From Lachnospiraceae bacterium (lineage in GTDB: Bacteria; Bacillota; Clostridia; Lachnospirales; Lachnospiraceae): a stretch of DNA of 64,000 nucleotides. Below the pieces are notes generated by a model. The model was given only the letters and a program-made list of their open reading frames with translations. It was not told the DNA's origin and ran no database searches. Position numbers and translations under genes: made by a program. The stretch is from assembly GCA_022790855.1 (NCBI GenBank), contig JAAVYA010000028.1, forward strand, positions 62,001 through 126,000. Direction: 5' to 3'. This document shows positions 11,498 to 19,264 of this stretch, one piece after another (position 1 is the first letter of the stretch; each line of letters starts with the position of its first letter).

Positions 11498-12364
11498 CTA
11501 TTGGGGAGTTTTGTATACGCCGATTCCAAGGGCTCCTATCCCAAGATGGCAGGCAATACTGCAGGAAAGAGGATAATATTCTATTGGGTGTTCCGGAAAG
11601 GCAGCCTGTACCAGGGCCATCCATTGTCTGGCGTCTTCTTCTTGCTCCAGCGTTCCGGCAGTTGCGATGGTAAGCAGGTGGGAAGGTATTTGGGAAAAAC
11701 GGTTCGTAATATCTTCTTGAATTGCTTCAATCATTTTCTTTTCGCATTGCTTGATACCTCGGACCTTTGCGTAAGCGTCCAATTTCCCGCCTTGAATGGT
11801 CAGTACAGGTTTTATATTCAGAACATTGGCTATGGCAGCGGCTGAGGGTGTAATCCGCCCGCTTTTTTTCAAGTACTTTAAAGAATTTACAGTCAGATAA
11901 ATGCTGGCCTCATAGGCGCTGCGTTCCAGGGATTCCTTAATTTCAAGAGCCGTATATCCCTGGTTAGCCATAATCTTCCCCTCTAAAACAGAAGCCATCA
12001 AAGTGACGGAAATCCGATGATTGTCTACTACTTGAATTTTAGAACCATATTCTTTGGCAAGCTGAACCGCATTGTGGCAGGAGCCGCTTAATTCACTGGA
12101 CATAGGAATATGTACAATTTCGTCATAACCATTTTGCAATATTTCGTCCCACATGTCGGTTACAGAGCCTGGTGACGGCTGAGAGGAAGAAATATCCCTG
12201 TCGCTGCGCATGGCTTCATAAAGCTGTTCGTGTGTGATATCCACTTCTTCCAGGTAACTATTCCCATCTACAATGACAGGCATGGGGAGGACAAAAATGC
12301 CTGCTTTTTTTCCTTCTTCTGTTGTGATGCCGCTGTTTGTATCTGTTGAAATCGCTGTTTTCAT
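11498..12364 (-). CDS. DegV family fatty-acid-binding protein
   Basis: 288 aa, ATG preceded by 'aaggag'. The N-terminus 'TAISTDTNSGITTEEGKK' and the block 'SSQPSPGSVTDMWDEIL' followed by 'HIPMSSELSGSCHNA' are DegV signatures, including the serine-rich loop that holds the fatty acid carboxylate. The later 'YLKKSGRITPSAAAIANVL' is also conserved. In Firmicutes these proteins (FakB type) present fatty acids to the FakA kinase for phospholipid synthesis. No FakA is in the window. Length is normal. Confidence 0.93.
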   Translation of the reverse strand: MKTAISTDTNSGITTEEGKKAGIFVLPMPVIVDGNSYLEEVDITHEQLYEAMRSDRDISSSQPSPGSVTDMWDEILQNGYDEIVHIPMSSELSGSCHNAVQLAKEYGSKIQVVDNHRISVTLMASVLEGKIMANQGYTALEIKESLERSAYEASIYLTVNSLKYLKKSGRITPSAAAIANVLNIKPVLTIQGGKLDAYAKVRGIKQCEKKMIEAIQEDITNRFSQIPSHLLTIATAGTLEQEEDARQWMALVQAAFPEHPIEYYPLSCSIACHLGIGALGIGVYKTPQ

Positions 12365-16555: not shown

Positions 16556-16584
16556 TTGCATTTTTTCAGATGGAATGCTACCAT
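16556..16584 (+). promoter_or_regulatory. sigma-A promoter of hydEG
   Basis: TTGCAT, 17 bp, TACCAT with an extended TGn motif (TGCTACCAT). It predicts a transcript start near 16590 and a leader of about 200 nt before hydE. Confidence 0.65.
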
Positions 16585-16589
16585 ATACA

Positions 16590-16725
16590 AAAGGTGCGCG
16601 GATAGGAACAGCCTTACCGCAAACCCTATACAATCGGCTAACCACAAGGGATACCTGAAGGGAAAGGCATAGCGTAGACAGGATCATTCTGCCTTCATAC
16701 CCTTTTGCGGTATGGAGGCATTTTT
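16590..16725 (+). ncRNA. candidate riboswitch or attenuator in the hydEG leader
   Basis: The leader can form two exclusive pairings. AAGGC at 16664-16668 can pair with GCCTT at 16611-16615 (aptamer-like form), or AAGGCA at 16664-16669 can pair with TGCCTT at 16690-16695, which is the 5' arm of a terminator stem. Local hairpins are also possible (GCGG 16598-16601 with CCGC 16617-16620; TGCGC 16595-16599 with GCGTA 16672-16676). I could not match it to a riboswitch class I know; a short likeness to the TPP 3' consensus was rejected. The ligand is unknown. Confidence 0.5.
16690..16725 (+). terminator. intrinsic terminator (attenuator) ahead of hydE
   Basis: 12-bp stem 'tgccttcatacc' / 'ggtatggaggca' (one G-U pair), 7-nt loop, then five T. 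It lies between the promoter and hydE, so it must be read through or disrupted for expression. Confidence 0.85.
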
Positions 16726-16792
16726 CATGGATTGAGAAAATGCTGCCCGACAGAAACTTGTGGATCGATGAAAGGAGTTGAAATAGGCATTC

Positions 16793-17845
16793 ATGAAGAA
16801 CGCCCTGTCTCTGATAGAAAAATTGAACCAGGAAAAAAAACTGGAAATGGAAGAATGGATATTTCTAATAGAAAATCGCAGGGAAAAGATTGCGGAAACA
16901 CTTTTTGCTTTGGCCAGAGATATCCAAAAGCAACACTTTGGAAACAAGATTTATACCAGAGGACTGATCGAGTATACAAATTATTGTAAAAATAACTGCT
17001 ATTACTGCGGGATTCGCAGAGATAACAAATCTGTGGAGCGATACCGGCTGACAGTCGAAGAAATATTGGATTGCTGCAGGAGGGGATATGCCCTGGGCTT
17101 TCGGACCTTTGTACTGCAGGGGGGAGAGGATGGGTATGATACAGATGAGAGGGTGGAAGAGATCATCCGTTCCGTGAAACAACGCTATCCGGACTGTGCC
17201 ATTACCCTGTCATTGGGAGAACGCTCCTATAAAAGTTATCTGCGGCTGTATCAAGCAGGGGCAGACCGTTATCTGCTGCGTCATGAAACAGCCCAGAAGG
17301 AGCACTATGAAATTTTGCATCCGCCAGAATTATCAGAGGCTAATCGAAAACAATGCTTGTACAATTTAAAGAAAATCGGGTATCAAACCGGTACAGGTTT
17401 TATGGTTGGCTCTCCCGGCCAGACCCCGCAAAGCTTGGCCGAAGATTTGATATTTATACAGGAACTGAATCCTCATATGGTGGGGATCGGCCCCTTTGTA
17501 CCCCACCATGAAACACCTTTTGCCAAGGAAAAAGGGGGAACCGTGGAACTGACGCTTTATATGCTGGGACTTTTACGGGTGATGCTGCCCAATGTGTTAT
17601 TGCCTGCCACTACGGCCTTAGGCACCATAGATCCCAGAGGGAGAGAAAAAGGAATTTTGGCAGGAGCCAATGTGGTGATGCCGAATCTTTCGCCCCTGGG
17701 CGTGAGAAAAAAATATGAACTGTATGACAATAAGATCTGCACCGGTGAGGAGGCGGCGGAGTGTCGCCAATGCCTGGCATCCAGAATGAAAGAAATAGGA
17801 TATGAACTGGTTGTGGATCGGGGAGATTATAAGGAGGAAAACTAA
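16793..17845 (+). CDS. hydE: [FeFe] hydrogenase H-cluster maturase HydE (radical SAM)
   Basis: 350 aa, normal length. The radical SAM cluster motif CX3CX2C is at Cys65, Cys69 and Cys72 ('YCKNNCYYCGIRR'). Other HydE traits: 'LQGGEDGYDTDERVEEIIR', 'TLSLGERS', 'RHETAQKEHYEILHP', 'GFMVGSPGQT' and 'GPFVPHHETPF'. HydE supplies intermediates for the dithiomethylamine-bridged [2Fe] subcluster. The ATG at 16793 has its purine-rich site ('aaaggag') about 16 nt upstream, a little far. hydG begins immediately after the stop. Neither HydF nor a hydrogenase subunit lies in the window. Confidence 0.95.
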   Translation: MKNALSLIEKLNQEKKLEMEEWIFLIENRREKIAETLFALARDIQKQHFGNKIYTRGLIEYTNYCKNNCYYCGIRRDNKSVERYRLTVEEILDCCRRGYALGFRTFVLQGGEDGYDTDERVEEIIRSVKQRYPDCAITLSLGERSYKSYLRLYQAGADRYLLRHETAQKEHYEILHPPELSEANRKQCLYNLKKIGYQTGTGFMVGSPGQTPQSLAEDLIFIQELNPHMVGIGPFVPHHETPFAKEKGGTVELTLYMLGLLRVMLPNVLLPATTALGTIDPRGREKGILAGANVVMPNLSPLGVRKKYELYDNKICTGEEAAECRQCLASRMKEIGYELVVDRGDYKEEN

Positions 17846-19264
17846 ATGTATAATGTAATGTCGCCAAAGGCAGAAGAATTTATCAGCCATGAGGAAATAA
17901 TGGACTGTCTGGAATACGGCCAGAAACACAAAGCAGACCGGGAATTGATTGACCGGATTTTGGAAAAAGCACGGCTGCGCAAGGGTCTTTCCCATCGGGA
18001 AGCCGTTGTGCTTTTGGACTGTGAACTGGAAGATAAGAATCAGGAGATTTATGAACTGGCGCAGCAGATTAAACAGGATTTCTATGGCAACCGTATCGTT
18101 ATGTTTGCGCCTTTATATCTTTCGAATTATTGCATCAATGGCTGTGAATATTGCCCTTATCATGCAAAAAATAAGCATATCCCAAGAAAAAAGCTGACCC
18201 AGGAAGAGATCGTAAAAGAGGTTATGGCGCTGCAGGATATGGGGCACAAGCGTCTGGCATTAGAAGCAGGAGAGGATCCGGTACATAATCCAATCGAATA
18301 TATTTTGGAATGTATTCAGACGATTTATGGTATTAAGCATAAAAACGGAGCGATCCGGCGGGTCAATGTGAACATTGCGGCTACTACGGTAGAAGAATAC
18401 CGGATGCTGAAGGAAGCGGGAATCGGCACCTATATTTTATTTCAGGAAACCTATCATAAAGAAAATTATGAGAGGCTGCATCCTACTGGGCCGAAACATG
18501 ACTATGCATATCACACGGAGGCGCATGACCGGGCTATGGACGGCGGGATTGATGATGTGGGGCTGGGCGTATTGTTTGGACTGAACAATTACCGCTATGA
18601 TTTTACCGGAATCCTAATGCATGCAGAACATTTGGAAGCCTATAAAGGAGTAGGGCCCCATACCATCAGCGTACCCAGAGTCCGGCGGGCGGATGATATT
18701 GACCCGGATGCTTTTGATGATGGTATTGATGATGATACGTTTGCCAAGCTTGTGGCTTGTATCCGGATAGCCGTCCCCTATACCGGAATGATCGTATCCA
18801 CCAGGGAAAGCCAGGCCTGCCGGGAACGGGTGCTGCATCTCGGCATTTCACAAATCAGCGGCGGATCACGCACCAGTGTGGGTGGATATGCCGATGAAGA
18901 GCCGGAAGAAGAAAGCTCCGCACAGTTTGACGTCAGTGATAACCGTACCTTAGACCAAGTAGTAAAATGGCTGATGGATATGGGATACGTTCCCTCCTTT
19001 TGTACGGCTTGCTACCGGGAGGGCCGAACCGGCGACCGGTTTATGACATTGTTGAAAAACGGACAAATTGTCAATTGCTGCCATCCCAATGCATTGATGA
19101 CCTTAAAAGAATATTTGGAGGATTATGCGTCACAAGAGACAAAAGAAGTGGGAGACGTTCTGATACGAAAGGAGTTGGACACGATTACGAATCCCGTAGT
19201 AAGGGAAAAGGTAGAAGATTATCTGGAGCATATTCAGGAAGGAAAGCGCGATTTCCGTTTTTAG
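17846..19264 (+). CDS. hydG: [FeFe] hydrogenase H-cluster maturase HydG (radical SAM tyrosine lyase)
   Basis: 472 aa, ATG directly after the hydE stop with 'aaggagg' inside the hydE 3' end, so translation is coupled. HydG cleaves tyrosine to give CO and cyanide ligands for the H-cluster. The N-terminal SAM cluster motif is Cys96-x3-Cys100-x2-Cys103 ('YCINGCEYC'). The C-terminal CX2CX22C motif, Cys386, Cys389 and Cys412 ('FCTACYREGRTGDRF' to 'NCCHPNA'), binds the second cluster where Fe(CO)2(CN) is built. This C-terminal motif separates HydG from ThiH. Confidence 0.96.
   Translation: MYNVMSPKAEEFISHEEIMDCLEYGQKHKADRELIDRILEKARLRKGLSHREAVVLLDCELEDKNQEIYELAQQIKQDFYGNRIVMFAPLYLSNYCINGCEYCPYHAKNKHIPRKKLTQEEIVKEVMALQDMGHKRLALEAGEDPVHNPIEYILECIQTIYGIKHKNGAIRRVNVNIAATTVEEYRMLKEAGIGTYILFQETYHKENYERLHPTGPKHDYAYHTEAHDRAMDGGIDDVGLGVLFGLNNYRYDFTGILMHAEHLEAYKGVGPHTISVPRVRRADDIDPDAFDDGIDDDTFAKLVACIRIAVPYTGMIVSTRESQACRERVLHLGISQISGGSRTSVGGYADEEPEEESSAQFDVSDNRTLDQVVKWLMDMGYVPSFCTACYREGRTGDRFMTLLKNGQIVNCCHPNALMTLKEYLEDYASQETKEVGDVLIRKELDTITNPVVREKVEDYLEHIQEGKRDFRF

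Follow-up and report, generated by a model that had tools for sequence, protein, structure and literature searches.

A leader RNA family upstream of [FeFe]-hydrogenase maturation genes in Clostridia, probably acting by transcription attenuation

In the window, the whole stretch of 64,000 nucleotides analysed here, hydE and hydG are preceded by a leader (positions 16585-16727) that contains, in order, a 5' hairpin, a core and a 12-bp terminator (Table 1), raising the question of what kind of RNA this leader is and to what signal it might respond. A preliminary description had presented it as a structured leader of no recognised class with the layout of a transcriptional switch, and had proposed comparison with Rfam and with related genomes as checks.

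The leader of hydE and hydG

Transcription would start at about position 16590, and we infer that the promoter-like sequence lying between the upstream nucleotidase gene and the leader is the one used. The sigma-A promoter proposed earlier is kept at related loci, with the same 17-nt spacing and better hexamers in L041 (TTGCAT-17-TACTAT) and L058 (TTGCAC-17-TATAAT), but it is weak by comparison with the consensus and was absent from the output of a consensus promoter scan. The intrinsic terminator, with the 12-bp stem first described and a TTTTT tract, was recovered as the only terminator-like site of such size between 15.5 and 20.5 kb. Of 200 dinucleotide shuffles, 198 folded less well than the leader (z -2.5), largely because of the terminator stem; the leader without this stem gave a z of -1.45, unremarkable on energy alone. 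Energy by itself is therefore no proof of a structured RNA, and comparison with relatives was needed.

Scans of the window and of 38 related loci with Rfam 15 at the gathering score assigned the element to no family and returned nothing but a tRNA, and at a relaxed threshold of E<=5 the window yielded chance matches only; the best weak matches over the window and the related loci had E-values of 0.04-5. Assignment to a known riboswitch by Rfam was rejected, as there was none at gathering or relaxed E-values. In the open-access papers searched, neither a description of this RNA nor a leader RNA for [FeFe]-hydrogenase maturation genes was found.

Table 1. Features of the hydE-hydG leader in window coordinates, and importer operon loci that carry the same RNA
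Feature	Position	Strand	Details and evidence
Promoter-like sequence	16556-16584	+	TTGCAT - 17 nt - TACCAT with extended -10 TGn; sequence, kept in relatives
Accessory 5' hairpin	16593-16625	+	GGUG-CGCGG..CCGCAAACC; conserved in 15 aligned leaders, covarying 4-bp helix
Conserved core	16629-16677	+	about 49 nt, CURA ... hairpin ... GAnnnnRAAGGC; model R3
P1	16633-16670	+	only A16633-U16670 and U16634-A16669 paired, next two pairs broken
P2	16642-16662	+	C16642-G16662 and C16643-G16661, 2/4 pairs kept
P3 hairpin	16647-16656	+	AGG-GAUA-CCU; folding, core comparison
Switching strand	16664-16669	+	AAGGCA, within core or antiterminator with 16690-16695; sequence and cognate-pairing test
Intrinsic terminator stem-loop	16690-16720	+	12 pairs; terminator scan, fold, pairing test
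Terminator U tract	16721-16725	+	TTTTT; sequence
hydE	16793-17845	+	TIGR03956, 590 bits
hydG	17846-19264	+	TIGR03955, 924 bits
Importer operons with the RNA	L291:8240-10862; L292:9090-11726; L293:9507-12214; L294:2338-5377; L295:8957-11825

Conserved core, helices and terminators

The comparison set comprised the sequences that precede hydE orthologs at 80 named loci. Many of these leaders share a motif consisting of GGUGMGYNG..CNGCAAACC, a linker of variable length and a block of the form ...ACCACAAGG..CCUGAAGGG..GG, followed by the terminator, and the motif is present in every one of the five genomes of the window's genus, counting its own, for which a hydE was recovered. Several lineages lack the 5' hairpin, and in some of them a promoter-like TATAAT immediately precedes the second block, which was therefore taken as the core. 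Its architecture is P1, an internal loop of n-CURA opposite RAAGG, P2, an AA/GA loop and P3, in which P1 is typically NYGU/GCRN, P3 is GGG/CCC or AGG/CCU, and P2 comprises some four pairs with no fixed sequence (UUAC/GUAA, CUGU/GCAG, CCG/CGG, GCC/GGC, CCGC/GCGG or CAUC/GAUG), while the unpaired CURA and RAAGG bases are conserved over very diverse genomes. Three covariance models were used: R1, the first, was built from hydE leaders, R2 was restricted to the core and served only for collecting members, and R3 carries the intended core structure. An ACC/GGU helix included in R1 was rejected, as diverse members vary the ACC and keep the GG.

Covariation was assessed on alignment A5, which was made with R2, a model that lacked P2 and had the brackets of P1 wrong; the alignment was thus not fitted to P2 or to most of P1, which made it useful for the test. 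With shuffle controls that, as in the other tests, take no account of relatedness among the sequences, the core helices scored 0.332 against 0.207+/-0.014 for shuffled alignments (0/500), slid partners reaching at most 0.140, and the cells changed on both sides of the helices numbered 60 against 27.5 in the control. At least three contiguous P2 pairs were formed with the member's own partner strand in 36 of 52 members, the maximum in 2000 shuffles being 34. The 4-bp helix of the 5' hairpin also covaries (GCGG/CCGC, GCAG/CUGC, GUGG/CCAC, CCGG/CCGG), with a score of 0.242 against 0.119+/-0.019 (0/500 shuffles) in a MAFFT alignment made without structure. The absence of an Rfam match together with this conserved, covarying structure agrees with the earlier view of an unclassified structured leader ahead of hydEG.

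The 2x2 internal loop of the 5' hairpin (columns 14-15/46-47 of alignment A1; window positions 16602-16603 and 16615-16616) is either GA/GA or AU/UA (or AC/UA), and this switch tracks the nucleotide that precedes the core's GG (C or U versus A). The co-change may stem from common descent or mark a tertiary contact.

In the window the copy is degenerate, with P1 and P2 each reduced to two of four pairs. It scores 32.5 bits with R3 (E 6e-7, the window being a training member of this model) and is the sole core match in its genome. A weak R3 match of 17 bits (E 0.02) at 11780-11812 on the minus strand of the window, inside the ORF at 11498-12364, is most likely due to chance.

A strong terminator lies downstream of 53 of 68 copies, compared to 12 of 340 shuffled segments (3.5%); about a fifth of the copies have no strong terminator. 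The 3' strand of the core (AAAGGC and the following bases) is complementary to the 5' arm of its own terminator, and over 60 loci the cognate pairing averaged -12.8 kcal/mol against -10.7 kcal/mol with the terminators of other members (0/20000 permutations), which supports the transcriptional switch layout initially proposed. Typical members have a long antiterminator in which AAGGCGAGAGAAUAG pairs with CUAUCCUUGUGCCUU at 13 of 15 positions; in the window, AAGGCA with UGCCUU gives -9.7 kcal/mol (z 0.28), no better than shuffled sequences. The preliminary description had placed AAGGC in mutually exclusive pairings with either GCCTT at 16611 or TGCCTT at 16690. An equivalent of the latter pairing recurs in relatives, whereas complementarity to the former is lost (for example CTTCTT in L042), the GCCTT strand instead forming part of the conserved 5' hairpin (AGG/CCT); only the downstream arm of that proposal was therefore kept.

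Because the core and the antiterminator draw on the same nucleotides, stabilisation of the core should favour termination. In the mechanism that we propose, AAAGGC of an unfolded core would pair with the 5' arm of the terminator as an antiterminator, allowing transcription of hydEG, while binding of a putative ligand would stabilise the core and retain AAAGGC within it, such that the terminator forms and transcription stops. We infer both the ligand binding and the OFF direction of this switch; the candidate ligand would most likely be a small molecule tied to H-cluster assembly or to the importer described below.

Distribution and gene partners

Matches to R1 were found upstream of hydE, TM1266-hydE, hydG and TM1266-hydG, with two copies in genome G026, one upstream of TM1266-hydE and the other upstream of hydG. 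One R1 match, in L158, lies within coding sequence and was rejected as a false positive. Whole-genome searches with R2, in which gene context was not used, were carried out on 391 genomes sampled evenly from the class and, excluding the window's genome, yielded 34 matches at E<=1e-3, of which 33 were outside the training set and one (L171) was identical to a training sequence. Just upstream of genes of the TM1266 family, hydE, hydG or hydF lay 33 of the 34, and the remaining match (L177) precedes an operon for an SsuBC-type ABC permease and ATPase. Weak R2 matches (E 0.01-0.1) are often away from hyd genes, as their E-values predict. In a phylum-wide search, R3 matched 18 of 398 genomes; strong matches again precede hyd genes or the importer, and several near the cut-off do not. 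Fuzzy regular-expression scans overlooked members of the family. Among 40 TM1266 loci missed by the strict scan R3 gave 16 matches at E<=1 (nine at E<0.05), all 16 in sense orientation; the strict counts therefore understate the extent of the family. It is conserved through Clostridia, almost only before genes for assembly of the [FeFe]-hydrogenase active site. In L176 and L184, an apparent second, degenerate core lies about 45 nt upstream of the motif in tandem (e.g. CCUUAAGAUGAGGAUCUGAGUGGAAAGGUU in L176).

The same RNA precedes ABC importer operons encoding an SsuA/NMT1-like binding protein, a permease and an ATPase in several families (Table 1). TM1266 is the first gene of the operon in L293, L294 and L295 and is not present in those of L291 and L292; L237 was likewise counted among the importer operons under the RNA. 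A weak motif match (L213:1501-1549, E 0.006) precedes TM1266 and an ECF-type S component, the latter matching PF12822 just below the cut-off. In the window's genome, TM1266 and hydF are located on a separate contig (L160, G000:C53:64677), and a search of this locus for the motif detected none. The SsuA/NMT1-like importer probably belongs to the hydrogenase regulon, a membership not recognised before. Known SsuA/NMT1-type relatives carry organic or small anionic solutes rather than iron. Sharing of the RNA between the importer and the H-cluster genes suggests a small molecule as the signal.

Candidate signals and significance

The leader is best described as belonging to a new clostridial family of attenuation RNAs that would act in cis on hydE, hydG, hydF and TM1266 and on an ABC importer associated with them, and we consider it probable that the family acts as a small-molecule OFF switch. 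Three features expected of a riboswitch are present, namely a structured, conserved core with covariation, an expression platform made up of the terminator and the alternative pairing of the core, and a consistent function of the downstream genes (33/34 maturation-gene contexts and one ABC operon). Transcription-terminating riboswitches of Firmicutes, such as the FMN and SAM-I leaders, are comparable in that an antiterminator and a terminator that exclude each other lie after a conserved core, and in preceding both the biosynthesis and the import genes of one cofactor or nutrient. However, the RNA has no sequence or structure match to any riboswitch in Rfam, its ligand is putative, and no known class was found with hydE, hydG, hydF or TM1266 as targets. 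T-box leaders are likewise terminator/antiterminator leaders in Firmicutes, but no T-box match was obtained for the hyd leader in the Rfam scans. A more specific proposal, that the RNA forms a new class of riboswitch and senses a metabolite of H-cluster assembly (a HydG or HydE product, or a compound taken in by the importer), can be advanced only tentatively.

In the main alternative, a protein would occupy the place of the ligand. TM1266, a small ACT-like protein annotated as a putative regulator of the hydrogenase system, might bind the RNA and attenuate its own, other hyd and importer operons in the manner of PyrR or L10; we regard this as possible but rather doubtful. TM1266 is the commonest first gene downstream of the RNA and was found in 35/35 motif-bearing genomes of the class against 235/391 overall (60%, uncorrected for relatedness), and a short hairpin with internal loops, such as the core, suits a protein-bound leader. 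The PyrR binding site (RF00515, 27.2 bits in L049 against a gathering score of 54) and the L10 leader (RF00557, 20.1 bits in L173 against 44), both protein-bound hairpins ahead of an attenuator, gave weak covariance scores, a similarity in the same direction; these are nevertheless far below threshold, the matched stretches include the terminator, and the targets of the hyd RNA are not pyr or ribosomal genes. Against a TM1266 site, some operons that carry the RNA lack the TM1266 gene, namely that of hydE in the window and the importer operons of L291 and L292, and most genomes with TM1266 have no detected motif, though motif detection is incomplete.

It is improbable that the attenuator is constitutive, responds to temperature or ions, or senses Fe2+ or redox state directly through the RNA, with no organic ligand involved. 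The iron-sulfur enzymes among the targets would fit such a signal, and the layout of the leader does not of itself specify one, but conservation of the CURA and RAAGG loop bases across very diverse genomes argues for specific recognition, and the co-regulated importer is of the SsuA/NMT1 type and not an iron importer. That the element is a mere terminator between the nucleotidase gene and hydE with pairings arising by chance is hardly credible, and although a terminator is present and the window's P1 and P2 are degenerate and its antiterminator weak, this reading is already contradicted by the conservation of sequence and structure in 5/5 hydE-bearing genomes of the genus and at the same position in distant families; the promoter-like sequence ahead of the leader also speaks against it.

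Maturation of [FeFe]-hydrogenase is biochemically well studied. The RNA, which is widespread, groups hydE, hydG, hydF and TM1266 into one regulon together with an orphan importer. If it is a riboswitch for an H-cluster metabolite, we know of no earlier RNA sensor devoted to [FeFe]-hydrogenase maturation, and the finding would direct attention to an imported nutrient of the H-cluster pathway that has gone unrecognised. The identity of the ligand would show both the signal that sets hydrogenase assembly and the cargo of the importer.
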